Source of the DNA: Erysipelotrichaceae bacterium
GTDB lineage: Bacteria; Bacillota_I; Bacilli_A; RFN20; CAG-826
Length of the DNA: 64,000 nucleotides
NCBI GenBank assembly: GCA_015058945.1
Contig: SVBF01000018.1
Span: 124,001 to 188,000 of the forward strand
Direction: 5' to 3'
In this document: positions 21,531 through 39,933 of the stretch, one piece after another
How positions within the stretch are numbered: position 1 is the stretch's first letter
Layout of the letters: each line of letters begins with the position of its first letter
The notes under the pieces: model-generated
The model's database searches: none
What the model saw: the letters and a program-made list of their open reading frames with translations, nothing else
Told to the model about the DNA's origin: nothing
Position numbers and translations under genes: made by a program

Positions 21531-21602
21531 CGTGCAAAACCTGCTTTATTTGTTCGATGGCGTCAGCCTTTCTTAGCTCGCATATACATGGGCGTGCCCC
21601 CC

Positions 21603-21631: not shown

Positions 21632-21634
21632 TAT

Positions 21635-21648
21635 TGCAAGCGCTCGAG
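21635..21648 (+). promoter_or_regulatory. cre-like operator at the operon start
   Basis: TGCAAGCGCTCGAG fits the CcpA/LacI-type cre consensus TGNAANCGNTNNCA at 12 of 14 positions and overlaps the predicted transcription start, a position that would repress. Confidence 0.4.
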
Positions 21649-21827: not shown

Positions 21828-22733
21828 GTGAGTAAGGACAACAAACCCCTACCCGACGGAGACGCTCGTTTTCCCAAGTCGTTTTCTTTAGCGCGCAACC
21901 GCGCCCTCAAGAAGGCGGCCATATGGACGGGCGCCATTTGCACCACCGCCTTTGGCCTCGTGCTATTGACCGGTGGCTTGCTCGGCGCCAACCACGGTTT
22001 CACGACCAAGATCGACCGCGGATCGTCCTTAGACCAAATCGTCCTGCGCGAAAACCGCCAACAGGCGGGCCAACGCGACCAAGACGGCGTCTATTTTCTT
22101 AACGCAGAGGGCCTGACCAACGCCAAGCCGACCCAAGCCGAAAAGGTCCTGGAGTTTTGCTCCGGACTTTACGAGGATCCGGATCTAGCCGGAAACCACG
22201 TGCTCGTCGACGAGGAAGGCAACCAAAGGGCCTTGGCCTATACCTTCTACTTAGAGAACGCCTCCCAAAAGGCAGAACCTCAGAATTTCACCTTCTACAT
22301 CAGCCTTGACGCCTACATCGCTCCGTCCAACGCCGGAGCCGCCAACCCCTATTCCTACCTTCGCGTCCTCGTCTATCGGAACGTCGAAGGCAGTGGCCTC
22401 CACGAACACACCTTCTACGCTGCCCCTAACGACCAGGGCATGGGAACGGTGGATGGAGGCCCCAACGACTTACGCGAATGTCTCTCCGATTGGGCAGAAG
22501 CCAAGGAAGGCGACAAAACACTCCGCCGTCCGACCTTCTTCGACGGAGAAGTCGGATACTGCAAAAACTTCGCTTCCAACACCAGCGAGCTCATCCGCGA
22601 AGACGACCTCATCGAGAAAGGACAGGTCATCCGTTATACGATCGTGACCTACTTTGAGGGTTTGGACCCCGATTGCATCGGTGCCTATCCCAACAATTCG
22701 TCCCTCTCGCTAAGCGCACATTTCGGAGACTAA
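21828..22733 (+). CDS. Membrane-anchored extracytoplasmic protein, first gene of fibre operon
   Basis: 301 aa from a GTG preceded by AAAGGAGG. A ~30-residue basic cytoplasmic tail is followed by one hydrophobic span (about 31-53), then an exported beta-rich domain. The C-terminus, IRYTIVTYFEGLDPDCIGAY...SLSLSAHFGD, keeps the [VI]xYxEG...LSLxxxF motif of the AWF family, although the AWF junction itself is missing (NHGF instead). It therefore looks like an uncleaved, membrane-tethered relative of the fibre proteins, perhaps an anchor or starter subunit. It is followed after three bases by the AWY protein. Confidence 0.78.
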   Translation: MSKDNKPLPDGDARFPKSFSLARNRALKKAAIWTGAICTTAFGLVLLTGGLLGANHGFTTKIDRGSSLDQIVLRENRQQAGQRDQDGVYFLNAEGLTNAKPTQAEKVLEFCSGLYEDPDLAGNHVLVDEEGNQRALAYTFYLENASQKAEPQNFTFYISLDAYIAPSNAGAANPYSYLRVLVYRNVEGSGLHEHTFYAAPNDQGMGTVDGGPNDLRECLSDWAEAKEGDKTLRRPTFFDGEVGYCKNFASNTSELIREDDLIEKGQVIRYTIVTYFEGLDPDCIGAYPNNSSLSLSAHFGD

Positions 22734-22736
22734 GGA

Positions 22737-23789
22737 ATGAAAAAAGCCAAGGCCAGTCCCATCTACGCGTCCGGCAAACTCTTCGCCGTCGCTTTCGGAC
22801 TCTTCGCTTTGACTTTATCGACCTCGGTCGCCGCGACCTACGCTTGGTATAAGGTCCGCGACTTTGCCCGCATCGACCAACTCTCCATGGCTTTTCAAGG
22901 AGAGGCGAAACTTGAGGCGGGCCTACGCATGGAAGATGGTTCCATCGACTACAAAGCCGTCCTCAACGAAGACGATTTCCGCAAAGTCGACCCCAACTAC
23001 GATTCCAACATCAACCTAAGGGATGTCTCGGGCATGTTCGTTTCTTCCTGGCTCGAAAGCGACGTGGAAGAGAAAACCCCGATCTTGCGCAAAGCCTATA
23101 CCCGTTCATCGGAAACGACGATGACCGAGAAGGCCGAGGAGGGCTTCGTCCAGATCGAGACCTTCTTCCGTAGCGACGTCCCCTGCCACCTCTACCTCAG
23201 CAAAGACACCCGCATCCGTCCCATGGAACGCTATAACCACGAACTCGCAAGGCGTAACGCCTGGAGCGAAGAGGAGCTAAACCGCGTCCTCGACTCGGTC
23301 CGCGTCTCCTTCTATTCCGAGGAAGGCTTCTATATCGCCGAACCCGGACGGGACACCCCGAGCCACACCAAGTTCGGCGGGCCGCTACAAGCCCATAACA
23401 AAGACGGCTTCTTCGATTACGTCGATGGCAAAGAGATCCTCTATGGCGAATATGTCGGCACCCCGACCTATCTCCCCGCCCTAGACGAGGATTCGCCCAT
23501 CCCCGACGATCCAAGCGCCTTCAACGCCAGGCATAAGGCCGGCGTGGAGCGCGTCGACCCGACTTCCGTCGATTACGCGGTGGAAGTCACTCACCCCTTC
23601 AAGGACTTCATCTTTGGGGGAGGACCTAAGGCCGACGGCGCCATCTGCTTAGGCACGCTAAGCCCCGATGAGGATTACCGCCTCGTCATCACCATCTACC
23701 TCGAGGGTTGGGATCTCGACCTCACCGACACCCTCGCCGCAGGCAAGTTCAGCCTCGACCTCAATTTCACCGGTCTAATGGACATCTAA
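22737..23789 (+). CDS. AWY-variant TasA-like secreted protein
   Basis: 350 aa. Signal peptide about 13-35 (LFAVAFGLFALTLSTSVAATY), then A36-W37-Y38 instead of AWF. The body is acidic and beta-rich and ends LVITIYLEGWDLDLTD...GKFSLDLNFTG, the shared family C-terminus. It should be exported and processed by the SipW-like enzyme encoded four genes downstream, then act as a fibre subunit or accessory subunit. GGAG eight bases before the start overlaps the end of the previous gene. No catalytic motif is seen. Confidence 0.8.
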   Translation: MKKAKASPIYASGKLFAVAFGLFALTLSTSVAATYAWYKVRDFARIDQLSMAFQGEAKLEAGLRMEDGSIDYKAVLNEDDFRKVDPNYDSNINLRDVSGMFVSSWLESDVEEKTPILRKAYTRSSETTMTEKAEEGFVQIETFFRSDVPCHLYLSKDTRIRPMERYNHELARRNAWSEEELNRVLDSVRVSFYSEEGFYIAEPGRDTPSHTKFGGPLQAHNKDGFFDYVDGKEILYGEYVGTPTYLPALDEDSPIPDDPSAFNARHKAGVERVDPTSVDYAVEVTHPFKDFIFGGGPKADGAICLGTLSPDEDYRLVITIYLEGWDLDLTDTLAAGKFSLDLNFTGLMDI

Positions 23790-23802
23790 GGAGGCATTCA
23801 CC

Positions 23803-25323
23803 ATGTCAACCACCTACTTCTCCTTCCTCTACGAAGTCTTGCTCTCGTTCGGCACGAACGTCGGCAACATGTTCAAGGGCAGATTCGACCTTAACGCCGA
23901 TTTCGCCAACTACCACCAAATCTACCTCGCCTACGCGGGCGGATTCGGTATCGGCGGATGGATCTTCTACGTCTTGATGATCCTGCTCGCCATCGGCATC
24001 GTCGGCTCGATCTTCGCCCTGCTCATCTATCTCATCCGCAAACTCATGCTCCGCCCCAAGACCAAGAAGGGCGAGGAAGAGAAGATGCGTCGCGAGATCG
24101 AACGGCTCAACCTCGAGCTTTACGACGCGATTCGCGAAAAAGACAAAATCCTCGGCATCAAGACCGCCGAGCGTTCCGGGCTCACCCCTGGCGTCTCCAC
24201 CGAAGGAGAAGGCGACGCCGACCTTTCCAACGCCCGCTTCCCCCGTTTGCTGCAGGTTGACATGAAATATCCGAACGGGGTCACCGTCACCGAACTCCCC
24301 GACGATGCGAAAGACATCGATTTGCCGGGCATCGTCGAGCGTTTCCGCAACTTCGCCTGCTCCCAGATGAAGCTCTATTACACCTTGGATACCTGCCGTC
24401 ACTTCTTCGCCTCCATGGGCGCAGGTAAGCTCATCATCCTCGAAGGTATCTCCGGCACCGGCAAAACCTCGCTCCCTTACTGCATGGGCCGTTTCTTCCA
24501 TAACGGCGCCAACATCTGCTCCGTCCAGCCCTCTTGGAGGGACCGCTCCGAATTGCTCGGCTATTACAACGAATTCACCCACAAGTTCACCGAGACCGAA
24601 TTCCTCCGCGCCATTTACGAAGCCACCTATCGCGACGACGTCGTCTTCGTCGTCCTCGACGAAATGAACCTCGCCCGCGTCGAATACTACTTTGCCGAAT
24701 TCCTCTCCATCATGGAAATGCCCAACACCCAAGAATGGATCATCAACCTCATCTCCGACCCGAGGGAAGACGACCCCAAGCATTTCCAAAACGGCCAGTT
24801 GCTCATCGGCCAGAACATCTTCTTCGTCGGCACTGCCAATAACGACGACTCCACCTTCACCATCACCGACAAGGTCTATGACCGCGCCATGTCGCTCTTC
24901 TTCGATAACAAAGGCCAGCCCTTCGAGGCGCCCTTCACCGAGGCGCTGCCGATGCCTTATGCCTATTTGGAGAACCTCTTTGAGCAAGCGCGCAAAGACC
25001 ATCCCATCTCCGAGGAGACCCTCGCCAAGTTCGCCCAGTTGGACGACTTCGTCATCGATCATTTCAAGCTCGCCTTCGGCAACCGTATCATGAAGCAGAT
25101 CCAGCGCTTCGTTCCCTGCTATGTCGGCTGCGGCGGCACCGAGGTCGGCGGTCTCGATTACCTCTTCAAGGTCAAGATCCTCAAGAAGTTCGAGGTCTTG
25201 AACGTCGGCTTCCTCAAAGACGAGTTGCTCCTCCTCGACGAAGAACTCACCAAACTCTTCGGCAAAGACGAGTTCCCCCTCTCCAGAGAGAAGATCCGCA
25301 CCCTCATTAAGATGAGCAAATAA
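23803..25323 (+). CDS. Membrane-anchored McrB-like AAA+ ATPase
   Basis: 506 aa. One long hydrophobic region (about 51-80) near the N-terminus is followed by a charged linker (90-110) and an AAA+ domain. Walker A is G215-ISGTGKT-222, Walker B VFVVLDE at 281-287 followed by MNLARVEYY, sensor 1 FVGTANNDDS at 341-350, and the arginine-finger block KVYDRAM near 361. The LDEMNLARVE and GTANNDDST blocks are the McrB signature. McrB proteins are normally GTP- or ATP-driven motors of restriction systems, but here there is no nuclease and the protein is membrane-bound inside a secretion operon. It probably remodels or drives export or assembly. AAGGAGG precedes the start. No DNA-binding domain is seen. 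Confidence 0.88.
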   Translation: MSTTYFSFLYEVLLSFGTNVGNMFKGRFDLNADFANYHQIYLAYAGGFGIGGWIFYVLMILLAIGIVGSIFALLIYLIRKLMLRPKTKKGEEEKMRREIERLNLELYDAIREKDKILGIKTAERSGLTPGVSTEGEGDADLSNARFPRLLQVDMKYPNGVTVTELPDDAKDIDLPGIVERFRNFACSQMKLYYTLDTCRHFFASMGAGKLIILEGISGTGKTSLPYCMGRFFHNGANICSVQPSWRDRSELLGYYNEFTHKFTETEFLRAIYEATYRDDVVFVVLDEMNLARVEYYFAEFLSIMEMPNTQEWIINLISDPREDDPKHFQNGQLLIGQNIFFVGTANNDDSTFTITDKVYDRAMSLFFDNKGQPFEAPFTEALPMPYAYLENLFEQARKDHPISEETLAKFAQLDDFVIDHFKLAFGNRIMKQIQRFVPCYVGCGGTEVGGLDYLFKVKILKKFEVLNVGFLKDELLLLDEELTKLFGKDEFPLSREKIRTLIKMSK

Positions 25324-25325
25324 CC

Positions 25326-26756
25326 ATGGCGGAACAAAAGACCAAAGAAAAAACCTTAGCCCAGGCCGGCAAAGACCTCGCCGAAGCCCTCAAAGGTCTC
25401 GCCTCGTCCTCGCCTTCTTTCGCCGCGACCAAAGACCTCGTGAAAGCCGATGGGGAGAACTATCTCCGCCAGACCGAGCGCATCGAGGTGAAGGCCTTCG
25501 ACGATTCTTTCGTCGTCGAGATGGAGGAAGGCTTCGAAGCCATCGGACGCATCATCGCAAACCCCCGCTCCTTCATCAAAGAGCAGCCCGAACTCGTCGA
25601 GGCGGGGCTTGCGAAGAAGATCTCCGCCCTAAGCGTCTCCCACCTCGCCTCCCATTCGCAGTTCGTCCGCCACGTGGACGAGAAGAAGAACGTCCACCCC
25701 GACAAGATCCTCACCATCTTCTCCGAGACCGACAACCAGATCTATGAGAACCGCTTCATCATGACCTTGATCCGCAAATGCATGGTCTTCCTGCAGGAGC
25801 GTTACACCTTCATGATCGAGCACGGCGAGACCTATGACTCCGACTTGCTCTTATTGCACACCAAGACCGAGATCGACGGCCTCACCTACACGATCGATTC
25901 CCGCATCAAGGTGTCCCAACCCTCGAGCGACGCCGGCGAAAGCAAACGCAACGAGGAATTGCTCCGCCGCATGGCGACCCTCCGTCAACGCGTCGCCTAC
26001 TTCAACCGCTCCCCCTTCATGGAGGAGATGAAAGGCGCCAAGGAAGTCTCCTCCCCGATCCACATGACCAACATGTTGCTCAAACAGCCCGATTATCATC
26101 GCGCCTATGAGCTCTGGTGCTTCCTCGACGAATACGAATCGATGGGCATCTCCTTTGACGTCACCGAGACCAACCAAAGGTTTGATCCCAATTACTTCGA
26201 CCGCATCTATAACCTGCTCACCGCGTCGCTTTTGACTCTTTCGAGCCACCGCGTCAAAGACCGCGTCCCCCATACCCCAAACAACACAGAGAAAACCACC
26301 TTCGAACCCGCGGTGATCTTCACCTTGGAGGACGAGACCTACGATAACGGCCGCTTTCTCTATAACCACTTCCCCGAGGAAAAGAAGAAACGCGAGAACC
26401 CCTTGGCCTTGACGCCAGAGGAAGCCGTCGCGGAGCAAAAGGCCCTCGAAGCCCTCATCGAGAAGCAGCGTAAGGCCAAGCCCCAAATCGAGGCCGACAT
26501 CCTCCATGACAAAGACCGCATCGTCTTGGAACTCGCGACCGCGCGAAAGAAAGCCAAAGAGGAATTGGATCAAAAGAAGAAAGAGGCCGAAGGTAACCGT
26601 AAGGCCAAAGAAGCCAAAGCCAAGAAAGAGGCCGATGAAAAGCGCCTCGCCGTCACCAAATCGGAAGCCAAGTCCGAAGAAGAAGGCGCCGAAGCCGCCC
26701 GCAAAGCGGCCATAGCCAAAGGAAAGGAAGACCGTCGCAAAGACCGCTCACGTTAA
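25326..26756 (+). CDS. DUF2357-like partner of the McrB-like ATPase
   Basis: 476 aa. The pattern ETDNQIYENRFIMTLI near residue 140 and the ~200 residues around it recall DUF2357 proteins, which accompany McrB-like ATPases in defence loci. The PD-(D/E)xK nuclease domain that usually follows DUF2357 is not visible. Instead the C-terminal ~110 residues are a highly charged coiled coil (KKEAEGNRKAKEAKAKKEADEK). It is encoded two bases after the ATPase stop, without a Shine-Dalgarno, so it depends on coupled translation. I infer that it forms a complex with the ATPase. The family call is moderate, the pairing is sure. Confidence 0.7.
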   Translation: MAEQKTKEKTLAQAGKDLAEALKGLASSSPSFAATKDLVKADGENYLRQTERIEVKAFDDSFVVEMEEGFEAIGRIIANPRSFIKEQPELVEAGLAKKISALSVSHLASHSQFVRHVDEKKNVHPDKILTIFSETDNQIYENRFIMTLIRKCMVFLQERYTFMIEHGETYDSDLLLLHTKTEIDGLTYTIDSRIKVSQPSSDAGESKRNEELLRRMATLRQRVAYFNRSPFMEEMKGAKEVSSPIHMTNMLLKQPDYHRAYELWCFLDEYESMGISFDVTETNQRFDPNYFDRIYNLLTASLLTLSSHRVKDRVPHTPNNTEKTTFEPAVIFTLEDETYDNGRFLYNHFPEEKKKRENPLALTPEEAVAEQKALEALIEKQRKAKPQIEADILHDKDRIVLELATARKKAKEELDQKKKEAEGNRKAKEAKAKKEADEKRLAVTKSEAKSEEEGAEAARKAAIAKGKEDRRKDRSR

Positions 26757-26758
26757 AC

Positions 26759-27562
26759 ATGGATAAGGGAAAGAGAAGGAAAATCATCTCCTACTCCATC
26801 GATGCCTTCTTGGGCCTCGTGATCGTTTTCCTGCTCTCCATCCAGATCCAGATGATGGCCACTTCCGGCCAAAACCATGGCGTCCCCCGCGCCTATGGCC
26901 TCTCCTTCCTCTACGTCGGCACCGATTCCATGGAAGGCGAGAAAGAGGATTCCCTTAATCGCGGCACGGGCATCATCGTCCAGCAAGCTGACGCATCCAG
27001 TCTGCATATGGGCGACATCGTGACCTTCTATGACGCGAATTTACGCGCCCCGAACACCCATCGTCTTAGCGAGGAACCCTACGTCGAAAACGGCGTCTAC
27101 CACTTCCACACGATGGGCGACAACGTCGACGCCGCGACCTACCAATATACCGGCGAATACTTCACCGACGCCGAGCTGATCGGCAAAGTCATCGGCCATA
27201 ACGATGGCCTAGGCACCTTCCTGACCTACGTCTCCCCTAGTGCCTCGGGCATGGCCCAAGCCGCGGGGAACAAAGGCGCGGCGACCTGGCTCTTCCCCCT
27301 CGTCGTCCTCCTTCCCTTAGCGGGCATCGCCGGCATCTCCATCGCCGGCACAGTCCATGAGGCGAGAAAGCAAAAGAAAGAAGACGAGGCGGAGATGAAG
27401 AAAGCCATGGAAGAAGCGGGCATCGATCTTAACGACGAAGCCGCGGTCATGCGCTTCGAAGAGAAATACCGCTTCAAGAAGGAATACCGCGAAGAACTCG
27501 AAAAAGAAAAAGCGAAGGCCAAGAAGAAGGCCTTGAAGGAACTCAGGAGGAACGAGTCATGA
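26759..27562 (+). CDS. SipW-type signal peptidase I (ER type, Ser-His)
   Basis: 267 aa. One N-terminal membrane anchor (about 11-33), then the catalytic core: nucleophile S57 in VGTDSME, H101 in APNTHRLSE in the position where ordinary bacterial SPase I has lysine, and the GDNVD motif at 120-124. A second membrane span lies near 176-198, followed by a ~65-residue charged cytoplasmic coil. The Ser-His arrangement is the hallmark of SipW, which processes TasA and related proteins in Bacillus. The operon contains several AWF/AWY substrates, supporting that role. ATGA overlap with the next gene. The long tail is unusual and may bind the ATPase complex. Confidence 0.9.
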   Translation: MDKGKRRKIISYSIDAFLGLVIVFLLSIQIQMMATSGQNHGVPRAYGLSFLYVGTDSMEGEKEDSLNRGTGIIVQQADASSLHMGDIVTFYDANLRAPNTHRLSEEPYVENGVYHFHTMGDNVDAATYQYTGEYFTDAELIGKVIGHNDGLGTFLTYVSPSASGMAQAAGNKGAATWLFPLVVLLPLAGIAGISIAGTVHEARKQKKEDEAEMKKAMEEAGIDLNDEAAVMRFEEKYRFKKEYREELEKEKAKAKKKALKELRRNES

Positions 27563-28989
27563 AGAAACGGAGTGTGTTTCCCATCATATTAGGATGCATC
27601 TTCCTCGCCTTAAGCGGCGTCGCCTTTGGCTTTGGCATCACTTTCCTCGCCCTCATCACCTTCGCCTCCGCCGAACTCGCCTATCTCCCCTATTCGCTTT
27701 ATGCGATTTCCGGCGGACTCGTCCTCATCATCATCGCTTTGCTAATCCTTATTCTTAATAAGAGAAAAGGAAAAGAAGAGGATCCGTTCCAAGGCGAATT
27801 CCTTAAGCCGCACGTTGACCTTCTCGAAACCGACGTTTTCCTCAAGACGTTAAATAAGCAACGCCGCGTCCCCGTCGGCGCGATCGGCTATCTCATCCTT
27901 TCGACTTTAAGTGAGGATGAACGCGCCGAGATCTCCGCCCGCATCAACGAGATCGTCTATCTCCGCATCCGCGATTTCTTCCCGGAGGAGAGTTCCACGC
28001 TTGGCTATGAAAAAGGCGTCTTCCGCGTTTACGCGAGCAAAGGCGACATCCGGGCCAAGATGGAAGAGGTCGCAAAGCAAACCATCGCCTCCTTCGCCCT
28101 CGATCCCACGCTGCCTGACCTCCGTCTCTTGCTCGGATTAGAAGCAAACGGGGCCGAAATGGAACCGAAGCTTCGCCTCGAGCACGCGGTCACCGCGATG
28201 GGTTATGACGCCCTCTCCCGTCTAAGCGGCGTCCTTAGCGACTACGACCCCGCGATGGAAATCGATTATCGCGGCTTGACGTTCGATCTGCAGGCCGCCT
28301 TAGACGAAAACCGCGTCGAGATTTCCTATGCGCCGCTACTCAACAAGGCGAACAAGACCTACGCCTACCGCCGCGTCCTTCGCCTCTTTGATCCGAGCCG
28401 TGGCCTCATCGAGGAAGACGAACTCCGCCGCCTCTCCGATAATATCGGCCAAGGCGACTTACTCGACCGTTACGCTTTGGAAAAGACCCTCGATGACCTC
28501 GCCCTTTGGGACGAAGGTGTCCGTCATAAACTTTCCTGCGTCTTGCTCTCCATCGGCAAATCCTCCTTCTACCGCGCCTCCTTCCTCCATGAACTCCGTC
28601 GCGCCTTCACCGAAAGGGGGTTCGACCTCGGGCGTCTTTGCCTCGCAATCAACGGCGCCGACCTCGTCTCGGACGAAGCTTATTGCGCTTCTTTCTCCAA
28701 GCGTGCCCATGCCTTGGGGATCAAGACCGCGATCGTCGGTTTCTCCTCCCGTTGCCCCCTAGTCCGCATCAACGAGATGAACCCGGACATCGTGAGCTTC
28801 GCCCCATCGTTTTTCGAACAGGACCCGCGCCTAGGCAAAGCCAAGATCGAGGTGCTCAAGAACACCGCCTTGACCATCGCCTCTGGCGGGGACGAATTCG
28901 CCACCATCCCCGACTTATATCCCGAGAAGGACGTCACCCCCGCCCTCGCCCTCGAACGGCTGCAGAATGAGGAGGAATTCCGTCGATGA
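27559..28989 (+). CDS. Membrane protein with degenerate GGDEF and EAL domains
   Basis: 476 aa. Two N-terminal membrane spans (about 5-35 and 45-70) precede a diguanylate-cyclase-like domain (about 85-195) in which no GGDEF motif is left, then an EAL-like domain (about 245-470). In the latter, FDPSRGLIEEDELRRLSDNIG and LGIKTAIVGFSS... align with EAL phosphodiesterase segments, but the EAL motif is absent (AYRRVLRLF), the first catalytic Glu block reads AINGAD, the DDFG block reads VGFSS and the lysine is missing. It cannot be an enzyme of the usual type, and may bind c-di-GMP or act structurally. AGGAGG before the start; ATGA overlaps on both sides. Confidence 0.78.
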   Translation: MKKRSVFPIILGCIFLALSGVAFGFGITFLALITFASAELAYLPYSLYAISGGLVLIIIALLILILNKRKGKEEDPFQGEFLKPHVDLLETDVFLKTLNKQRRVPVGAIGYLILSTLSEDERAEISARINEIVYLRIRDFFPEESSTLGYEKGVFRVYASKGDIRAKMEEVAKQTIASFALDPTLPDLRLLLGLEANGAEMEPKLRLEHAVTAMGYDALSRLSGVLSDYDPAMEIDYRGLTFDLQAALDENRVEISYAPLLNKANKTYAYRRVLRLFDPSRGLIEEDELRRLSDNIGQGDLLDRYALEKTLDDLALWDEGVRHKLSCVLLSIGKSSFYRASFLHELRRAFTERGFDLGRLCLAINGADLVSDEAYCASFSKRAHALGIKTAIVGFSSRCPLVRINEMNPDIVSFAPSFFEQDPRLGKAKIEVLKNTALTIASGGDEFATIPDLYPEKDVTPALALERLQNEEEFRR

Positions 28990-29714
28990 TCGCCATCATT
29001 GCCACCCATCCCGACGACCTGCTTTACATCAAAGCCAGGCTCACGCTCCTCACCGGCGAACGCGAGTTGCGCGAAGGGGTCAAGACCACCCACGGTTTCT
29101 ATGGCTCCGAGGAAGTCGTCCTTTTGTCGACCGGTCCGAGCAGCTACATGTCCGCCCTTTTGACCGACCTCATCATCAACCGTTATGACCCTGATGTCGT
29201 CTATGGCGTCGGCGATTGCTTCGCCTTATCGCCCCTCATCAAGGAAGGCGACGTCATCATCGGCTCGAAGTGCTATCTCCATGGCGTCAACCACCATGCG
29301 ACCGGCGAGCCTTATGGCGTCATCCCCGGACTCCCCGAGTCCTTCCCTTGCTCCGCTTCTCTTGGTTCTCGCGCCTTAGGCCTAGCCGGGTCTAGTGGCA
29401 TCCGCGCGTTCGCCGGCGCAATGCTTAGCGGCGAAAAAGCCATCTTCGATAAGGACGAATTCGACGAGATCCTCACCCGCCGCTACGCGGGCAAAGACCT
29501 CTATGGTTACGATAATTCCACCGCAGGTATCGCCCTCTCCTGCTATCTGCAGAAGAAATCCTTCCTCTCATTACGCGTTGTCTCCTATGTCCCGGGCATC
29601 GAGGAATCGCGGCTTCGTTATCATCGCATCGCCCTCGAATCCTTGCCAGGCGTCGGGCGTATCATCTTCGGCCTATGCGCCATGCACCAGAGCAAGAAAG
29701 GAGGCGCCAAATGA
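28986..29714 (+). CDS. Degenerate nucleoside phosphorylase/MTA-SAH nucleosidase-like protein
   Basis: 242 aa. The fold resembles the PNP/UDP phosphorylase family: LLSTGPSSYMSALLTDLIINRY...VVYGVGDCFALSPLIKEGDVIIG matches the family's 'TGxGxxxAA...GxAGGLxxxxxxGDVVI' blocks, and DNSTAGIALSCYLQKKSFLSLRVVSYVPG matches 'DMEGAAIAxVC...RxISD'. The catalytic residues are replaced (N-S-T for M-E-G, Y-V-P for S-D), so a nucleoside-binding but inactive protein is more likely than an enzyme. It starts inside the stop of the GGDEF/EAL protein (ATGA) and ends within the start of the next one (ATGA). It could sense a nucleoside or nucleotide for the operon. Confidence 0.7.
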   Translation: MIAIIATHPDDLLYIKARLTLLTGERELREGVKTTHGFYGSEEVVLLSTGPSSYMSALLTDLIINRYDPDVVYGVGDCFALSPLIKEGDVIIGSKCYLHGVNHHATGEPYGVIPGLPESFPCSASLGSRALGLAGSSGIRAFAGAMLSGEKAIFDKDEFDEILTRRYAGKDLYGYDNSTAGIALSCYLQKKSFLSLRVVSYVPGIEESRLRYHRIALESLPGVGRIIFGLCAMHQSKKGGAK

Positions 29715-32599
29715 AAAAGACCCTGACTTATCGCCCCACCGCCTTACTCGGTTTGTTCGGCTTGCTCTTCCTCACCGGCGGATGGATCTGCCTCATCCTC
29801 TTCTTCTCTGGCGCGCCGACATGGATGAAATACGTCGTCTATGGCTGCTTCGCCGTGAGCTTTGTCTTCATTCTTATTGGTCTCCTCGTCTTATTAAGCA
29901 GAAGGAAGAAAGACGCCGCCGCAAGCGCCCAGGCGATCATGAATCTCGAGGCCATGAAAAAAGGCGACCTTTCGCCTCGCCTCGTCCCTCCTTCTAGCGC
30001 ACCAGTCCAAGACATCGCTTTGGCCATCGCCTCCTTGTCAGAAGAGAGCTTTGAAAACAAGCCTCAGGAGGACGTCCTAAGCAAAGAGCGATTCGAAGAA
30101 TATCTGAAAAACACCTTATCCCTCAGCCCAAGCGTCCGTTCCTGCCTCATCCTCATCGGCCTAGATTCCCGCGGCACCCCCGAGGAATACGAAGACCTCA
30201 AGGAGAAAGTCCGCGCCGCCTACCCCTCTTTGGCCATGGGCGAAATCAAAGGCGGATTCGCCTTATTCCACCAAAACGCCTTAAGCGAGCAGGAAGAGGC
30301 GGGCAAAGCCAAGCGCTTCATCGAGGGATACGCCTCCATCAACGACCCCTCTTCCATCAAGCCGGTCGTCGCTGGGGCGAAAGCCGCCCTCGTCTTCTAT
30401 CCCGATTTCCGGATGGAGGAACTTTGGGAAGTCGCTTACGCTTCCTTCGCCGAGGCTAAGCCCATCAAAGTGGCTTCTAACGGGGAAGCGAACCTCACCC
30501 CATTCACCGCTTCCGAGCATTCCCGCAAGAACGAAATCCCCTATGAGGATTACGAGATGATGATGGCTAAGGCGGGTGACGCCAAAGACCGTAAGCAGGC
30601 GTTACGCCTCTTGCTCATCAAAACCGCGTTAGGCTTAGGCTATGACCAAGTCGGCCTCGCCTTATATGATCCAAGCCGCCTCGCCTATCGCTTGATCGAG
30701 GAAATCCATGTCGAAGGCAAAGTCCCCGCCTTCAAGACGCTTGAGGAAGAAGGCTATATCGCCGAGGATCGCCTCAACCCCTATTACGACCTCGCCTTAG
30801 GGCAAAGGCTTTATTGCGTCCAAGACGCCTTGTCCTTACCCTCACGTCCCGCGGCCATCCTCGATTCGCTCGGCCTTCGTTCCATCGCCGTCAGCGCGAT
30901 CGGCACCAAGGAGAACCGCATCGGCATCATATATCTGACTGCCGGCGCGCCTTCTGGTGAGATCGATTACCGTAAACAATTCGCCTTAAAGCGTCTCTTC
31001 TTAACGCTGCGCGAACATCTTCTCCTAGAGAAAACCATCCTGGATGCGGAAGGAAGCGCAAAGACCGAATCGCTGCTCACCGAGAACTCCGGGCGTTATT
31101 CCTATGAAATCGATCCGCGCACCCACCGTTTGCTCCACCTTTCCGCCAATCTCGCCAAGGCCTTCCCCAAGGCACGCGTCGGCCAATATTGTTTCAAGGC
31201 GTTGCTCGGTTTGAACGAGCCTTGCCACAACTGTCCTTTGGTGAACGAGGAAGGGTTCCGTAAATCCTTAGCCCCCATTGGGCCAGGACTACTCTCCTTC
31301 TCCGCCTTATCCAAGGTGCCCACCGCGACGATTTGCCTAAGCAAGCAAGAACGCGGTCTCACCCCAAGACGCCTCGACCCGAAACTTTATATCCTCAATC
31401 GTCGCGCCCTCATGGCGGACCTTGAAGGCGCCTTGCTCCAAGAGAAGGAAGGCATCGCCTTGCTCTTCCGCATCGATAACGCGGTCATGTCCGCCGGCAA
31501 GATCAAAGACGGCACCGTCGACGACGTCATGGCCTCGGTCGTGTCGCGCTTATCCATCTCCTCTCTCGACGAAGGCTTGTACCGTTATGATGACGACACT
31601 TTGGGTTACCTTTTGCCCGACGAAAGCAAAGAGGGTGCTTTTGAGGTCGCGAAGGAAGTCGCGACGGCTTTGTCGAACGCCTTGCCTTTGCAAGACGCTT
31701 CCTTCGTCCCGGAACTCAGTTATGTCATCTTCGCCTACCCGATTGAGGTGAGCTGCGTCTTCGATTTGGAATCGTTGACCCGTACCTGCATGGAAAAGGT
31801 TCCTAATCTTGGCAAGGGGCGCGTCATTCCCTTTGATGATGGCGAAGCCCCGCTGGTCTTGCCTCGCGCCTATAAAGAGGATGCGCTTAAGAAAGCGATG
31901 GCCAAGGGCACGTTCCCGCTTTGCTATAGCCTCGTGCGAGAGAATTCCTCCTTACGTCCGCGTTACGCCGAAGTCGGCGCCCTTATCAGTCTCGCCCGCG
32001 GCGAGAAGACCAACCCCGAAGAACTGCGCGCCCTCTTACCGGACGAGCGCATGGTCGCCAAACTCGAGGAAGGCGAACTGAGCAGCTTCTTCGCCTCCTT
32101 CAAAGCCAACGCGAAAGCCTTTAAGTCCTCGAGCCTCAAAGGCGTGATCCTGCGCATCGGCAAAGCGAGCCTCTTCTCCTCGACCTACATGCGCGTGTTA
32201 GGCCGCGGCATCAAGGACGCCCATATCCCGGCGGGCTACATCCACCTCGTCATCCCCTCCGCGTTTAAGGAAGAAGAGCGGGAAAAACTGCAAAATGCCC
32301 TGCAAATCCTTAAGGAAAACAAGGTCAATGTCTTGCCGATCTATGGCGAAGGTGAGAAAAGCGACCTCGCGTTGTTGAAGCAAGACGACTTGCTCCACGC
32401 CTTCCATAGTGGCCTAGCCGAAGAGGAACTTCGCGCCAGGGTGAAGAAGGCGCAGGAAGAGCGCGTGAGCCTCATCTTGCCGCGCGTCGACGAAGACGAA
32501 CAAAAGAGCTACGCCCTAGCCCTAAGCATCCCTTATGGCGAAGGTAAACTTTATGGCGAACATTTGGAGGAAAAAGACTTCTTAAAGGAAATCGCGTAA
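29711..32599 (+). CDS. Large membrane protein with degenerate GGDEF, GAF, PAS, GGDEF and EAL-like domains
   Basis: 962 aa from the ATG at 29711 (AAAGGAGG just upstream). Two membrane spans (about 8-32 and 37-60). Then a cyclase-like domain without GGDEF (about 120-260), a GAF-like domain (about 285-440), a PAS-like domain with the Cys motif EPCHNCPL (about 455-540), a second cyclase-like domain in which the catalytic site reads YRYDDDTLGY in place of GGDEF (about 565-720), and an EAL-like domain (about 725-960) lacking the usual catalytic acids. It is likely a signal-sensing scaffold, possibly partnered with the degenerate protein at 27559. Function inferred only. Confidence 0.78.
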   Translation: MKKTLTYRPTALLGLFGLLFLTGGWICLILFFSGAPTWMKYVVYGCFAVSFVFILIGLLVLLSRRKKDAAASAQAIMNLEAMKKGDLSPRLVPPSSAPVQDIALAIASLSEESFENKPQEDVLSKERFEEYLKNTLSLSPSVRSCLILIGLDSRGTPEEYEDLKEKVRAAYPSLAMGEIKGGFALFHQNALSEQEEAGKAKRFIEGYASINDPSSIKPVVAGAKAALVFYPDFRMEELWEVAYASFAEAKPIKVASNGEANLTPFTASEHSRKNEIPYEDYEMMMAKAGDAKDRKQALRLLLIKTALGLGYDQVGLALYDPSRLAYRLIEEIHVEGKVPAFKTLEEEGYIAEDRLNPYYDLALGQRLYCVQDALSLPSRPAAILDSLGLRSIAVSAIGTKENRIGIIYLTAGAPSGEIDYRKQFALKRLFLTLREHLLLEKTILDAEGSAKTESLLTENSGRYSYEIDPRTHRLLHLSANLAKAFPKARVGQYCFKALLGLNEPCHNCPLVNEEGFRKSLAPIGPGLLSFSALSKVPTATICLSKQERGLTPRRLDPKLYILNRRALMADLEGALLQEKEGIALLFRIDNAVMSAGKIKDGTVDDVMASVVSRLSISSLDEGLYRYDDDTLGYLLPDESKEGAFEVAKEVATALSNALPLQDASFVPELSYVIFAYPIEVSCVFDLESLTRTCMEKVPNLGKGRVIPFDDGEAPLVLPRAYKEDALKKAMAKGTFPLCYSLVRENSSLRPRYAEVGALISLARGEKTNPEELRALLPDERMVAKLEEGELSSFFASFKANAKAFKSSSLKGVILRIGKASLFSSTYMRVLGRGIKDAHIPAGYIHLVIPSAFKEEEREKLQNALQILKENKVNVLPIYGEGEKSDLALLKQDDLLHAFHSGLAEEELRARVKKAQEERVSLILPRVDEDEQKSYALALSIPYGEGKLYGEHLEEKDFLKEIA

Positions 32600-32603
32600 A
32601 CAA

Positions 32604-33518
32604 ATGACACGGGCAAGGGAAAGGAAATTAAGGATGCTCATGATGATCGGCTTTGCCGTCCTTTCGACATCCTCTTTGGCCGTGGCGTCCTTTGCCTGGT
32701 TCACCGCGAGCACCAAGGCGAGCGCGAACTTCTCCAACCTGACCGTCCTCTCCCCCGATAGCGTCGTCCTTTACGCCTATAAGGGAAATCCCGATCCTTC
32801 ATATGTGCCAGAGAAAGACGGCAACAAATTCGATGACGATTTCGTTCCTCTCGATAACAACACCCAAGAATCGATCCGCACCCAATACGCCGACTTCAAT
32901 GGCATGTATCCCGGCAAGGCGATGACTTTCGCATTTAAGATCGAAAACAAGTCTTCCGCGGCTTTGTCCATCACCAAACTCACTTCAAACGACGCCTTAT
33001 TAGAAGGGTTAAAGGGCACGGACAACCAACATCAATACCGTTACGTGGCGAATTCGACGCCAAGCGAACTAATCAACATCGGCTGGGCCATGGATATATA
33101 CGTAACTACCCTGACGTCAGATTCGGGCTATTCGTCGTTTGCGAATGATCCCTCCAATAACTACGCTGCCGAAGATAAATTCCTCTATGGGAGCGATGCG
33201 GTCGTTGAATCCAAGTACCGCAAAGAAACCTATTTAGCAGGTACCACCGCTAATAACGTCATCACCCTAACGAATCAAATCCCTTTGTTCTCTAGCGATG
33301 AATTAGATGCAGACGCCACCACTTATCTCTTCTTTAGCGTCCTTTTTTCAGACCATGATTCCACTTATTACCAAGAAGTGAACGGAAACTCGGGAACCGC
33401 GACGGATTTAGATGTCATTCCCACTAGCGGCGATCGTTATTTCAGAAAAACAACGTCCGGCAATTCAAATTGCTATAGCAATTTAACATTTGCCATCAAC
33501 GAACTATCATTAAGGTAA
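32604..33518 (+). CDS. AWF-type secreted protein
   Basis: 304 aa. Signal peptide about 10-30, then A31-W32-F33-TASTKASA. Camelysin/TasA-like beta-rich body: ANFSNLTVLSPDSVVLYAYKG near the N-terminus matches the second strand region of the cassette proteins (AAFSTLTVKSPS). The C-terminal LTFAINELSLR is shorter and lacks the W-L-E-G motif, but YLFFSVLFSDHDS stands in the same place. It lies between the sensor scaffold and the giant protein in the same operon and is a likely major or linking subunit of the surface structure. Confidence 0.82.
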   Translation: MTRARERKLRMLMMIGFAVLSTSSLAVASFAWFTASTKASANFSNLTVLSPDSVVLYAYKGNPDPSYVPEKDGNKFDDDFVPLDNNTQESIRTQYADFNGMYPGKAMTFAFKIENKSSAALSITKLTSNDALLEGLKGTDNQHQYRYVANSTPSELINIGWAMDIYVTTLTSDSGYSSFANDPSNNYAAEDKFLYGSDAVVESKYRKETYLAGTTANNVITLTNQIPLFSSDELDADATTYLFFSVLFSDHDSTYYQEVNGNSGTATDLDVIPTSGDRYFRKTTSGNSNCYSNLTFAINELSLR

Positions 33519-33524
33519 GGCGCA

Positions 33525-36500
33525 ATGGGGAAAGGAAGAGCGAAAATTCCATTCTGGCTGTTAATCGTCTTCTCGGCGGTAACCATTTTCACCACCGCGA
33601 TTTCCACCTTAGCCTGGTTCACTTTATATGCCCCGCCTTCTAGTTCGATGGTCGCTGGGTCTTCGGATGTGGAAATCGAAGGCGTCACCGGTTATAAGAT
33701 CAAAGAGACCCGCAAGCCCAATGGTTATGTCGACTATAGCCAAGAAAACCGTATCGTCTCTCAGCAGGATTTGACCACCAACGAATTCACTACGAAGGAA
33801 AACACGAACAAACAGGGCTTTGAGCTCGATTTCGACGTACCCCCTGACGGCATCGGTTATTACGTCGTCGTCCCCAATAGCCTCGGCACCTATAAGATCA
33901 GCGTTGACGATAAGAACTACGCCAAGTTCTCCGCCTACGAGCATGGCAGCGCATATTCCGCCGAAATCTTCGTTTCGGAAGGCGAGGCGTTTCGTATTCG
34001 CTCCTATCAGATGAAGGACTACGAGACCAACCTCACGACCATGACCATCACCAATAGCACCTGCAACGGCGCTACGATCCATGAAGGCAAGGAAGTCACC
34101 CCCGACCACGAAGGCTATTATCGCGTTTGGATCGATACCACCACCGCTAACGACGTTACGACCTGCACGGTTGGCTTGGAATTGTTATCCAAAACTTCTC
34201 CGAATGCCGGACTAGGAAGAAAAATCACAAGGAATAGCCTCAACAACAAAGGCGGACAAAGAATTTGGCTAAACCTAAACGGGCAAGGGTGGCGTAATGA
34301 TAGCGCGCATATCGTTCTAGACGTCTATGATTCAGGTGGACATAGCTGGACTGAAATGACGCGGAATGGTGAGACGGATTATTATTATGCTGACGTCCCT
34401 TCCAATGCGTCTGGGTGGTCCAAGATGATATTCGTCCGAGCGAAATCCACTTGGAGCAGCAGTGCTGGCGCAGATTTTAATGGTTACAAGTGGAACCAAA
34501 CCGGCGATCTTGACTTTCCAGATGACCCAAAAAATTGCTACAAACTAACCGCATACGAAAGTGGCGAGTGGGAAGAATACCAGTCTGCGCGCATAAAAGT
34601 CGGCAGTAACGCATATGCCAATATGACATGGGATGACACGAATTCCGAATGGAATTACACCATCTCGGGCAGCGTTGCTTCGGGGACGGCATTGACATTT
34701 GAAAAATACGGGGAATCTATTTCGATTACCCGCTCGGCGGATGGTTCGGATTTACCCTACATCAATAACCTCAGTGTCAGCGGAACCACTTATAAAATCG
34801 TTACTGGCGGTTCTAATCTAAAAATCTATTTGCACACGGACAACTCAGTTTGGGTGACAACCGTTGAAACCGCAAAAGTTTCCATCGGTGGCGCTACGGC
34901 CCAAACCATGACATACGAGGATGTCAACAGTGGCCAATGGCATTATTCCGCTTCTAACGTAGCCGATAACGCCACCCTAGCTTTCACTTTTAGCGGCGTC
35001 TCCATAACCGTATCTAAGAGCCCTGATTCATCCGCAAAGTGGTATGAAAAGAATAATTTCAGCAGCAATAAAGTCATTCGGGGCAACCAAGGGCTAACCG
35101 GTGGAGGCAACATCGAAATCTACCTACACAAGGATAAGACAGTATGGGTATCAGCCGTCGCGGAAATCCAATCTGGGAGCAAGGGCTGGTACGCACTTAC
35201 TCAAAACCCCAACAACGAAAATGAACTTCAAGCCACGGGGATGAGCGTCTCCGCCAAAGACACCGTCGCCTTGCGCGTTAATGGATCGACCGTAACGTAC
35301 ACGGTGAACTCTGCCGCATACAACAACATCAGCGGAACCTCCATTCTTAAGGATGCCGAAAATGTTGGTATGTTCATCACGAAAGATACTACCAAATCTC
35401 TTTGGGTCGAAGGCAACAAAACCTACGCCCTGTCCATCGGCGGTGTAAGCAAAGGAGAAATGGCCTATCAATCGGCGAGCAGTGTCCATCCCGGCTGGTA
35501 TGGCCTGACTAACATCTCCGCGACAGCGGATACCCTTTCCATCACACTCAACGGCGCTCCGGTCACTGGACTTATCTCTGCTAGCGGTGAAGGTGTTGTA
35601 GACAATAACTTCAACGCGTCTACCGGAAAGGTGCGCAAGGACGGAACCGTTTCCGTCTATTTCGATACTTCCACGAAAGCCGTCCATGTCACCCCAATCT
35701 ATTCGATTACGGTGGGGAGCACCAACCTAATCGCCGAACTCGATAGCGGTTCCTATAAAGCCACTTTCTCCTCATTTGCTGACGATGCGTCCGTGAAGGC
35801 TTTCATCAACGACCAAGAGCAAACGACATATACCGCAGAAGGAAGCCGCGACGCTGGCGCCACACGTAATAACTGCTATGGCCTCGCCGGGGCGTTAAAG
35901 ACATTAAATGGCGTCGATACCAACACCGTCGTCTCATTTAACAAATCCGCTGGGACGATTTGGGTCGATGGCTACGCGCCGACCTATTGGATCAAAGTCG
36001 GTAGTGCCGAATACATCAAGCTGACGGAGGATGAAAGCAATAGCTCAATCTATAAAGCAAACATCACCGCTGCCGCGGGCGATACCATCCTTTTCCGCCG
36101 TAATTCCAGCGGCACCGCCTTCAATAACGACGTAACTCCGGAAGCCCCCACTAACTTGAATAACATCAATGCTTCCCACGTGGTCAATACCGCGGTAGAA
36201 GACGCCACGCTTCGTCTGAATATCGACACCAATCAAGTGTGGCTATCAGGCAAAGAGATAACCTTAAAATTCTATGACCCAGCCACTTCGATCTATATTC
36301 ACCTATGGAATTCCTCCAACACCAGCGTTCGTAATGCCGCTTTCCCTGGCGAGATCATGACCAATACCGGCAACAACGTTCATGCCTATACTTTCACGGT
36401 GGGAAACACCCCGTGGGATAGCGTCCTATTCAGCACGGGCAACATGGGCCGTCAAACCGTGGACATTTCCCTTGCCTCGGATCTTTACGAAGGCAAATGC

Positions 36501-38003
36501 ATTGCCTTTGGCAGATTTAACGATACCGATTCTTCCAAATACGATATCCGCTCCTTCAGCGAAAGCAGTTTGCCTAATGTCGCTAGAGTATATCTTCTCG
36601 ACAAGGGTTCGACTTATTTTGGCGGAACCCCTCAGCTTTACGCCTGGAACGGAGACGCGAACAACGCCGCCTTCCCTGGCACGCCGATGAACGAAATCAT
36701 CCCAGGCGTTTTATGGGGTGGTGTCGTCAATACGGATACCTACGCGAATGTCCTTATCTCCGCTAAAGCATCCGGGGATTGCAACCAGACCGCGGACCAA
36801 ACCATCGCCGCGACGGAAGATAAAGTTTTTGTCGCTAGCGGCACTAGTGGCCATACGGTAACCGGGAATTGGGCAGCCAAAGTAACAGAAGCAACCGTTC
36901 CAGCCGTTGCCTATGTCAATTCCACAGGCACAACGATGGCAATCGGTAACTGGAAAACAGGCGATGGTAGTGACCAAGGCCGAAACAAGTACATCTACGA
37001 ACGCGGTATTCAGGCCGCTAACGGCGATACCCTCTCGGTCAAGATTAACGATGTTGCGGTCACCAGTTTTGTCAGTGCCATGAACAGCTACCCCTATTTG
37101 ACCATCACCGGAAGCACCATCAAAGTCAAATTAGGTGAAGGCGAATCCGCGCGTTTCAACTTCTACATCAACGACAAAGACGAACTCGCCATCATCATGG
37201 TCCCTGACCGCGGCAATGGTTTCTATATCATGCCATACAGCAACAGCGCGGTCGGTTTCATTGGCGCGCATAAGATGAGCTCCGCGAACAACACCACCGC
37301 CCTATATGATGGCTACTACGCGGAAAAGAATTCAAAAATCTACATCCGTTCTTACATCGATTCCAAAGATAAGATTTACCCCCTCGCCGACAGTGTCGAC
37401 GCCAATATCGCCACAGTCGCAGGAACCGTGAACGTCAAAGGCGAAGAGATCGGGGCCATCATCGAATTACAGAAATCATCCTACTACACGATTAACGTCA
37501 GCGCAGGCAAGGTGTACATCACCGAATTCACCATGGACGAGTTCTTGAAAATGAACTCCTTAGACCAATATAACCGCACCGTTAGCAGCCAAACCGATAT
37601 CTTTAATCAGCTGACCTCAATGGTGCTTGCGGTCAAGTTCAAGCCTACCAGTAACAAGTTCGCCATGAGCCCGCAAGTCTTAGTGAAAAACGACGCCGCC
37701 AACTATCTTGGCGTCGCGGCCGCCTTCGTCACAGAAAGCGCGGCGGAAAACCTTAATCCTTACGAGTATATGCGTGCGAGCGCACGATATACGTATAATG
37801 AGACGACAAATCCAAACGGTCTAACCAAGCGTGGGACCGATTTCACTTTGCAGGATGCCAGCTTTGCCACAGCTGTCGGCGGCACTGGATCCTATTACGC
37901 ATTCATCCTCGTCGACTATGTCTATAGCGCATCTCTCTCTGGCATCGCTTATAACTACAGCGAGAACATAAACTTATTCTTGAGGTTGGCCCAAGTATCA
38001 TGA
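33525..38003 (+). CDS. Giant AWF-type surface protein with carbohydrate-binding-like modules and ~95-residue repeats
   Basis: 1492 aa. Signal peptide 9-29, then A30-W31-F32. Roughly residues 235-345 resemble a CBM25/26-type starch-binding module (GGQRIWLNL..., HSWTEMT, KMIFVRAKS, KWNQTGDLDF). Six tandem units of about 95 residues follow (about 345-905), each opening with a SIGG/VGS-type strand and closing with IYLHxDxxVWV or a variant. Two more CBM-like modules (IYIHLWNSS..., PQLYAWNGD) and an unassigned beta region come next. The C-terminus SYYAFILVDYVYSAS...NINLFLRLAQVS resembles the AWF-family end. It may be the adhesive tip or glycan-binding subunit of the structure. ATGA overlap with the following gene. 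Confidence 0.85.
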   Translation: MGKGRAKIPFWLLIVFSAVTIFTTAISTLAWFTLYAPPSSSMVAGSSDVEIEGVTGYKIKETRKPNGYVDYSQENRIVSQQDLTTNEFTTKENTNKQGFELDFDVPPDGIGYYVVVPNSLGTYKISVDDKNYAKFSAYEHGSAYSAEIFVSEGEAFRIRSYQMKDYETNLTTMTITNSTCNGATIHEGKEVTPDHEGYYRVWIDTTTANDVTTCTVGLELLSKTSPNAGLGRKITRNSLNNKGGQRIWLNLNGQGWRNDSAHIVLDVYDSGGHSWTEMTRNGETDYYYADVPSNASGWSKMIFVRAKSTWSSSAGADFNGYKWNQTGDLDFPDDPKNCYKLTAYESGEWEEYQSARIKVGSNAYANMTWDDTNSEWNYTISGSVASGTALTFEKYGESISITRSADGSDLPYINNLSVSGTTYKIVTGGSNLKIYLHTDNSVWVTTVETAKVSIGGATAQTMTYEDVNSGQWHYSASNVADNATLAFTFSGVSITVSKSPDSSAKWYEKNNFSSNKVIRGNQGLTGGGNIEIYLHKDKTVWVSAVAEIQSGSKGWYALTQNPNNENELQATGMSVSAKDTVALRVNGSTVTYTVNSAAYNNISGTSILKDAENVGMFITKDTTKSLWVEGNKTYALSIGGVSKGEMAYQSASSVHPGWYGLTNISATADTLSITLNGAPVTGLISASGEGVVDNNFNASTGKVRKDGTVSVYFDTSTKAVHVTPIYSITVGSTNLIAELDSGSYKATFSSFADDASVKAFINDQEQTTYTAEGSRDAGATRNNCYGLAGALKTLNGVDTNTVVSFNKSAGTIWVDGYAPTYWIKVGSAEYIKLTEDESNSSIYKANITAAAGDTILFRRNSSGTAFNNDVTPEAPTNLNNINASHVVNTAVEDATLRLNIDTNQVWLSGKEITLKFYDPATSIYIHLWNSSNTSVRNAAFPGEIMTNTGNNVHAYTFTVGNTPWDSVLFSTGNMGRQTVDISLASDLYEGKCIAFGRFNDTDSSKYDIRSFSESSLPNVARVYLLDKGSTYFGGTPQLYAWNGDANNAAFPGTPMNEIIPGVLWGGVVNTDTYANVLISAKASGDCNQTADQTIAATEDKVFVASGTSGHTVTGNWAAKVTEATVPAVAYVNSTGTTMAIGNWKTGDGSDQGRNKYIYERGIQAANGDTLSVKINDVAVTSFVSAMNSYPYLTITGSTIKVKLGEGESARFNFYINDKDELAIIMVPDRGNGFYIMPYSNSAVGFIGAHKMSSANNTTALYDGYYAEKNSKIYIRSYIDSKDKIYPLADSVDANIATVAGTVNVKGEEIGAIIELQKSSYYTINVSAGKVYITEFTMDEFLKMNSLDQYNRTVSSQTDIFNQLTSMVLAVKFKPTSNKFAMSPQVLVKNDAANYLGVAAAFVTESAAENLNPYEYMRASARYTYNETTNPNGLTKRGTDFTLQDASFATAVGGTGSYYAFILVDYVYSASLSGIAYNYSENINLFLRLAQVS

Positions 38004-38491
38004 AGAAGCGCGGTTTGATTCTGACATCTCTTTCCCTTCTCATCGGGGCACTCGCGGTAACCGGCGCGACTTCTTTGGCCGCGTTTGAAAGCTCGAAGAG
38101 GGAAATCAAAATCGTGGGCACCAACGGCATGCACGGCAGCACCATCTTCCTATCCGCCGGCGTATGGGAAGATGACGTCGAAGCTTCGTTCCACTTGTTT
38201 TCTTGGGCTGATGGGAAAGAAACGATTTGGCTTTCGCCTGTAGGAAAAGCAACCGAAAACGGCTATTACATCTTTGAATTGGACACGAAGAATTACACCA
38301 ACATCATTTTCGCCCGCATGGATCCCGCGCATAACGCAAAGTCGGACTTTGATCAAAACACCAACTATCTATGGAACAAAACAGCCGACTTAACCTTCGA
38401 TGCCTCAAAGCGTCTCTATAAAATCACCGGCTGGGGAGCATACGGCCAAAAGGTTTCCGTTGGGGAATGGGCCGTTTATAACGATAACTGA
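38000..38491 (+). CDS. Secreted single-module CBM26-like protein
   Basis: 163 aa. Signal peptide about 5-30 (LILTSLSLLIGALAVTGATSLAAF, with AAF in place of AWF), then one module closely similar to the CBM-like modules of the giant protein: ASFHLFSWADGKETIW, YTNIIFARMDP, NYLWNKTADL and ITGWGAYG. It starts inside the stop codon of the giant gene (ATGA at 38000-38003) and is the last gene of the operon. Probable glycan-binding accessory protein, released or bound to the fibre. Confidence 0.82.
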   Translation: MKKRGLILTSLSLLIGALAVTGATSLAAFESSKREIKIVGTNGMHGSTIFLSAGVWEDDVEASFHLFSWADGKETIWLSPVGKATENGYYIFELDTKNYTNIIFARMDPAHNAKSDFDQNTNYLWNKTADLTFDASKRLYKITGWGAYGQKVSVGEWAVYNDN

Positions 38492-39926: not shown

Positions 39927-39933
39927 ATTGTCA

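Follow-up and report, generated by a model that had tools for sequence, protein, structure and literature searches.

A probable CoCoPALM-type fibre and adhesin export operon from a clade that appears to have dropped c-di-GMP control

What single system could unite exported fibre-like proteins, a signal peptidase (SPase), a membrane-bound McrB-like NTPase and degenerate cyclic di-GMP (c-di-GMP) domains? The question is raised by eleven genes (p1–p11, positions 21828–38491) in a 64,000-nucleotide stretch of DNA from an Erysipelotrichaceae bacterium (assembly GCA_015058945.1, contig SVBF01000018.1, positions 124,001 to 188,000), hereafter the window. Its source is a draft genome of 1.46 Mb; among named genomes, those closest to it are 'Bacilli/Erysipelotrichaceae' metagenome-assembled genomes (MAGs) from the rumen. 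The locus is probably a fibre and adhesin export operon of the CoCoPALM type, from a clade that dropped the c-di-GMP control found in its relatives, and its most likely function is that of a regulated surface-fibre or adhesin exporter.

An export kit beside a membrane McrB-like motor pair

The original prediction described eleven genes in one direction with gaps of a few bases or ATGA overlaps, and this layout was confirmed: all lie on one strand, spaced by 2–13 nucleotides or overlapping by 4 nucleotides, with plausible ribosome-binding sites throughout. Its domain readings for the McrB-like, DUF2357, Ser-His SPase, degenerate EAL/GGDEF, degenerate nucleosidase and carbohydrate-binding module (CBM)-like proteins likewise held. 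The genes are as follows (TM, transmembrane; MTA/SAH, methylthioadenosine/S-adenosylhomocysteine; MTAN, MTA/SAH nucleosidase; AWF and AWY, processing motifs of exported proteins).

21828..22733, +: p1, likely TasA-like beta-sandwich protein with an N-terminal TM segment, candidate membrane anchor of the fibre (AlphaFold2 model, structural match, alignment)
22737..23789, +: p2, AWY exported protein, likely TasA-like subunit (AlphaFold2 model, structural match, alignment)
23803..25323, +: p3, membrane-tethered McrB-like AAA+ NTPase (profile to McrB structures, TM segment, GTANNDD)
25326..26756, +: p4, McrC-like partner, DUF2357 plus a charged K/E-rich tail (PF09823, alignment)
26759..27562, +: p5, Ser-His signal peptidase of the SEC11/SipW type, with a charged tail and two TM segments (SEC11A 7P2P match, Ser57/His101)
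27559..28989, +: p6, EAL-family membrane protein that has lost its catalytic residues in the window's clade (EAL 73 bits, residue table)
28986..29714, +: p7, MTA/SAH-nucleosidase-fold protein without catalytic residues (PF01048 54 bits, MTAN structures)
29711..32599, +: p8, two-TM protein with degenerate GGDEF and EAL domains (EAL 26.7 bits, GGDEF 13.5 bits); the start at 29711, which gives an ATGA overlap, is more likely than 29675
32604..33518, +: p9, AWF exported protein (AWF signal, positional counterpart in L167)
33525..38003, +: p10, 1492-amino-acid AWF exported protein with CBM26-like modules, candidate adhesin or tip cargo (PF16738, counterpart giant in L167)
38000..38491, +: p11, 163-amino-acid exported protein like one CBM-like module of p10 (BLASTP against p10)

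A neighbourhood search had been named beforehand as the test that could overturn the original prediction; it found the gene set, seen in uncultured bacteria of rumen and gut, conserved across the window's GTDB family, and its core in Clostridia and Acholeplasmatales. The family sample comprised 196 genomes, with 40 neighbourhoods read by open reading frame (ORF) calling and profiles. A DUF2357-like match to p4 was present in 102/196 genomes and the p3-subtype NTPase (profile E below 1e-180, a split made in this analysis at a wide E-value gap) in 84/196. Gene order from p1 to p8 was the same in most loci not cut by contig ends, p6–p7 being missing from the close relatives L041 and L043, and a chance gene cluster was rejected because this order recurs in most intact sampled loci. 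At least 578 p3 relatives were counted in named genomes, and among the 80 best are those of Clostridia, Ruminococcus, Oscillospiraceae MAGs, Acholeplasmataceae and Paracholeplasma vituli. The core of the machine is thus found beyond the family, in Clostridia and Acholeplasmatales, and in several of these relatives it runs EAL proteins–p1–AWF(s)–SPase–McrB–DUF2357–(AWFs)–SPase. The SPase gene adjoins in 42/51 loci outside the family, where contig ends truncate many of the loci.

Other arrangements were also seen. Type B loci (L159, L160, L163, L077 and L078) combine McrB–DUF2357 with AWF-like proteins, a protein matching the peptidase profile and an ABC transporter whose permeases are large, and type C loci (L075, L076 and L161) have two McrB-like NTPases around DUF2357 together with giant membrane proteins. 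No c-di-GMP genes were seen in type B and type C loci of the window's family and order.

The first two products resemble fibre subunits. For the AlphaFold model of p2 (predicted local distance difference test, pLDDT, 82.5) the top structural match is the TasA fibre 8AUR (Z 6.4), followed by 7PNB, FmlH and 7UEG; for p1 (pLDDT 82.9) the same fibre ties for first place with PorA-N (Z 7.0), both scores lying below 8 and within the range of common sandwich folds. Behind TasA stand the Sulfolobus 0406 filament, Pyrobaculum bundling pili and chaperone-usher pilins. A sequence profile of p2 gave chance matches only in the PDB. A TasA-like fold for p1 and p2 is nevertheless likely, because the pattern recurs over two independent models and is accompanied by AWF/AWY signals and a peptidase. 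The proposed joining of a SipW/TasA-like export kit to a membrane McrB/DUF2357 pair is therefore borne out as a conserved unit in which p1 and p2 have TasA as best or joint-best match. p1 keeps its N-terminal TM segment and has no AWF cleavage motif, and would thus be the natural anchor.

The peptidase p5 is SEC11A-like (7P2P, profile E 7e-14), and its Ser57 and His101 are invariant in an alignment of relatives. Scores against TIGR02228 (35 bits) and NF046067 (30.8 bits) are both under cut-off, the SipW equivalog NF046067 demanding 190 bits; by these profiles p5 does not belong to SipW proper and is related only more broadly, to the Ser-His SPases at large.

The motor pair follows the two subunits. 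A profile of p3 matches McrB structures (E 2.5e-5), and its Walker motifs and GTANNDD are invariant in an alignment of relatives. GTA-N-x-D-D is found in 77/79 loci and N-N-D-E in the two-NTPase type C loci; N-N-D-D fits an NxxD pattern too, and the alignment to E. coli McrB is ungapped there. The protein has a single TM segment (residues 57–75) with a charged stretch after it. DUF2357 is recognized in p4 (PF09823, 31.8 bits against a Pfam cut-off of 23.3). The K/E-rich tail behind it varies greatly in length among relatives, and its coiled coil is judged from composition alone. In L042, L044 and other loci this tail is very long (whole p4 1596 and 1308 amino acids), E-, K- and P-rich and strongly divergent between relatives.

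A tethered NTPase, usually beside a peptidase, would also suit membrane quality control, with p3–p4 remodelling or extracting either the peptidase or SipW-type preproteins. In that case the AWF/AWY proteins would be separate, non-polymerising surface proteins. AAA+ proteins are frequent extractors of membrane proteins, and the NTPase–peptidase pairing extends to ABC-transporter-linked type B loci without c-di-GMP genes. The p1 and p2 models, among whose leading matches are TasA and archaeal filaments, and the several AWF paralogues per operon, as needed for major and minor fibre subunits, speak against quality control, which we consider unlikely.

Large exported cargo completes the operon. Stretches of p10 are CBM26-like (PF16738, 27.0 bits, E 5e-6, just below the 28.1-bit cut-off), and p11 resembles one p10 module (BLASTP E 3e-5). 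When the giants of other loci were scanned for CBMs they mostly contained no known domain, and a 'starch adhesin' as a property of the system was rejected on this ground. At an Oscillospiraceae locus (L110:2104-3507) an HD–EAL fusion fills the EAL slot, and the giant cargo there carries BspA-type leucine-rich repeats.

Upstream of the operon lie two divergent AWF genes, with AWF genes at the equivalent place in the nearest relative (L167) and many other loci, and p0, a conserved two-TM gene that precedes p1 and was added to the locus.

18952..19797, −: AWF exported protein, candidate fibre subunit, divergent from the operon (N-terminal TM segment and TFAWF processing motif)
20023..20808, −: second divergent AWF exported protein (basis as for its neighbour)
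21114..21491 (approximate), +: p0, small two-TM protein whose cytoplasmic tail is charged (by alignment, conserved ahead of p1 in many relatives; GTG start at 21114 inferred)
21492..21827, +: leader between p0 and p1, with a stable RNA fold and lacking the c-di-GMP-I riboswitch of relatives (z −3.6, covariance searches)

A 418-amino-acid minus-strand ORF over p3 (23806–25062) most probably arises as a mere coding shadow. Next to the operon's end lie a gene for a Fic-domain protein (38498–39751, −) and a HipBA-like toxin–antitoxin pair (39910–41380, +).

c-di-GMP control in relatives and at the window's operon

An Rfam search detected a c-di-GMP-I riboswitch before p1 in L105, L125, L116, L096 and L098, and a genome-wide search found many more beside type-A operons. 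A covariance model was built from 23 riboswitches, which themselves match it by construction. Of the 72 riboswitches in the loci searched, 46 stand directly before p1 and most others before cargo, SPase or tether genes. Outside the window's clade, 20/20 testable loci of the family have an RF01051-type aptamer ahead of p1. Cargo giants and AWF genes can have a riboswitch of their own (for example L070, L071, L045, L072 and L046), which ties the cargo to the machine.

Co-occurrence across genomes, a check proposed with the original prediction, agrees with this link. GGDEF genes were present in 83/84 genomes with the p3 subtype; 18 genomes had GGDEF without it, 94 had neither and one had the operon without GGDEF (Fisher p 9e-36). 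The association persists within genera (Cochran–Mantel–Haenszel (CMH) p 5e-11), shared ancestry still inflating both p values. Among genomes with only other McrB subtypes, GGDEF was found in 3/39. These counts are not the operon's own genes, because none of 24 p6 proteins matches PF00990.

Could the riboswitch and EAL links be incidental, riboswitches being common and co-occurrence mirroring genome size and shared ancestry? Genomes of one family do share ancestry, and reduced genomes drop many systems together. Against this, family genomes hold at most six riboswitches each, yet in the loci read these stand before p1, tether, SPase or cargo genes; the co-occurrence holds within genera; and the riboswitch link recurs in Paracholeplasma and Clostridia. 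An incidental link is very unlikely. The c-di-GMP-linked form is present in Paracholeplasma vituli 92-19, which is on record as a strain and not as a MAG. Judged from sequence, the system in relatives is a c-di-GMP device.

The products of p6–p8 were read against this background. The complete EAL catalytic set is present in 22/24 aligned p6 members, all except those of the window and L047; in the window (EAL 73 bits) only Q is kept of E, N, E, DD, K, E and Q. The fold of p7 is that of the purine nucleoside phosphorylase (PNP)/MTAN group (PF01048, 54 bits; MTAN structures, E about 4e-16), with the MEA and SD motif positions, which we take to be catalytic, changed in the window and all aligned relatives. 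p8 scores below cut-off for both EAL (26.7 bits) and GGDEF (13.5 bits), and the GGDEF motif and catalytic Glu are absent in 29/29 members. By alignment, p7 and p8 are without catalytic residues throughout the relatives. In some family members p8 retains E, N, E, D, K and Q, compatible with ligand binding without catalysis, and the window's p8 has lost most ligand residues too. The 'dead c-di-GMP-type domains' of the original prediction do not characterize the system as a whole: p6 is intact in 22/24 relatives and dead only in one clade, and riboswitches lead the operon in the family outside that clade.

In the p3 tree that clade, with local support of 1.0, consists of the window, L167 (genome G214), L039, L058, L047, L081, L041 and L043. 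Rfam and covariance model searches found no riboswitch before p1 in any member. Within the clade p6 is degenerate (window, L167, L039 and L047), missing (L041 and L043) or beyond the end of the contig (L058 and L081). The window's p1 leader gave no RF01051 match at E ≤ 1, nothing above 7.2 bits with the home-built model and filters off, and no credible Rfam family; no family was matched in the p1 leaders of L058, L039 and L043, and an alignment of the clade's p1 leaders revealed no common motif. The window's leader folds stably (z −3.6) and contains a 60-nucleotide block (21721–21780) that is 84% identical to the p1 leader of the nearest relative only (G214, L167:15004-15060) and could be a control element replacing the riboswitch.

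The losses of riboswitch and p6 active site coincide in this one clade, and by these comparisons the dead EAL of the window's p6 is lineage-specific decay. The window genome encodes 7 GGDEF proteins and has three strong EAL matches; since it keeps c-di-GMP signalling genes, it is the operon that is uncoupled and not the cell. c-di-GMP input at the operon appears to have been lost in the window genome. The proposed gating by nucleotide sensing hence fits the family, with its riboswitches in 20/20 testable loci outside the clade and its intact p6, and not the window genome. In that genome a GGDEF gene lies directly behind a c-di-GMP-I riboswitch (L168:8636-10258; G000 contig C15), as also at L039:1-1200, possibly a feedback control of c-di-GMP synthesis. 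We also note that genomes G169 and G188 (L039/L069; L047 and contig C6) each hold a pair of type-A operons, of which one retains riboswitch and intact EAL and the other belongs to the decoupled clade.

A proposed mechanism and its weighing

More tentatively, the family may represent a distinct surface-fibre machine of Gram-positive and wall-less bacteria, in which a membrane McrBC-type NTPase drives or gates the assembly of TasA-like fibres and giant adhesins under a c-di-GMP switch that is both transcriptional and post-translational, one clade having been rewired to another signal. In this model AWF/AWY preproteins would cross the membrane via Sec and be cut by p5 next to W, releasing an N-terminal strand that would enter a neighbouring subunit, in donor-strand polymerisation as in TasA fibres. 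p1, held by its TM segment, would form the base nearest the cell, and p2 would either join early or end the fibre, with p9, p10 and the divergent AWF proteins supplying shaft and adhesive cargo. The p3–p4 ring NTPase at the inner face might extract or hold preproteins, pass them to p5, or pace fibre growth. p6–p7–p8 would make up a membrane sensor complex; in relatives p6 could hydrolyse c-di-GMP and p8 act as receptor or scaffold, and in the window the three may be only ligand-binding or structural parts.

Several points weigh against the fibre-export reading. Foldseek found no significant PDB match for p1 or p2 (E > 0.01), and the Z scores alone do not prove homology. A PDB search with the p4 profile missed the McrC structures, cargo domains vary widely between loci, and the riboswitch may be either an on-switch or an off-switch. 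The role of the ATPase pair p3–p4 in export, including the powering of assembly, is inferred.

The McrB/McrC ancestry and a match of p3 residues 188–319 to the candidate defence family PDC-M26A (E 5e-37) might instead suggest an anti-phage, type IV restriction-like system that recruited surface proteins, but such a restriction or defence system was rejected as hardly credible, since family library scans matched no nuclease domain in p1–p10 (nor, in p4, any nuclease family, including PD-(D/E)xK, at E ≤ 1) and no DNA-binding specificity domain, a TM segment replaces the nucleic-acid-binding domain, the signal peptidase and exported subunits are conserved, the system persists across a family, and relatives carry the c-di-GMP riboswitch.

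If regulated fibre and adhesin export is indeed the function, the barely described CoCoPALM class gains a role, an McrBC motor has moved from DNA restriction to the cell surface, a TasA-like system has its own NTPase, and rumen and gut Bacilli and Acholeplasmatales have an additional c-di-GMP output.

Comparison with known systems

LapD–LapG/LapA adhesin control (PMC3032553) resembles p8 in relatives in placing a degenerate GGDEF–EAL membrane protein beside a surface-adhesin system. It differs in that no LapG-like protease was matched here, the window's p8 has lost most ligand residues, and both phylum and fibre type are other.

McrBC type IV restriction of E. coli shares the McrB AAA+ fold and the DUF2357 partner; here no nuclease or DNA-binding specificity domain was matched, and a membrane tether and export genes are found instead.

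The TapA–SipW–TasA system of Bacillus subtilis is, to our knowledge, a three-gene system without an NTPase, DUF2357, EAL/MTAN genes or a riboswitch. In common with the present operon it has a SipW-type Ser-His peptidase, an AWF-type short signal and donor-strand beta-sandwich subunits (here by model; TasA donor-strand fibre, PMC9674648), whereas p5 falls far under the SipW equivalog cut-off (30.8 against 190 bits).

The closest likeness is to CoCoPALM. In one paragraph, Bell et al. 2024 (PMC11090510) give this name to McrB-like GTPases that have an NxD motif and TM/coiled-coil parts and are encoded next to signal peptidases; the text just names the class and defers its treatment to later work. 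The operon had been taken for undescribed, and to that extent the class was already named; the TasA-like models and the c-di-GMP link are new relative to that main text, which, supplement apart, mentions neither c-di-GMP nor TasA. No further description of CoCoPALM was found in the literature searched beyond Bell et al. 2024. As far as that paragraph goes, the likeness lies in an McrB-like NTPase with N-x-D(D/E) and a TM part, a DUF2357 partner with a charged tail and an adjacent signal-peptidase-family protein. In the window the NxD motif is present (NxxD also fits), the TM segment and charged stretch of p3 may correspond to the FtsB-like TM/coiled-coil part fused to the NTPase in that class, p4 is an McrC homologue (DUF2357) whose coiled-coil extension is read from composition only, and p5 comes right after p4. 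TasA-like subunits, a riboswitch in relatives, the EAL/MTAN/GGDEF–EAL module, the subtypes and a decoupled clade are additional to the published outline. The window operon is likely a member of the CoCoPALM class, belonging to a c-di-GMP-linked, TasA-like branch and here in decoupled form.

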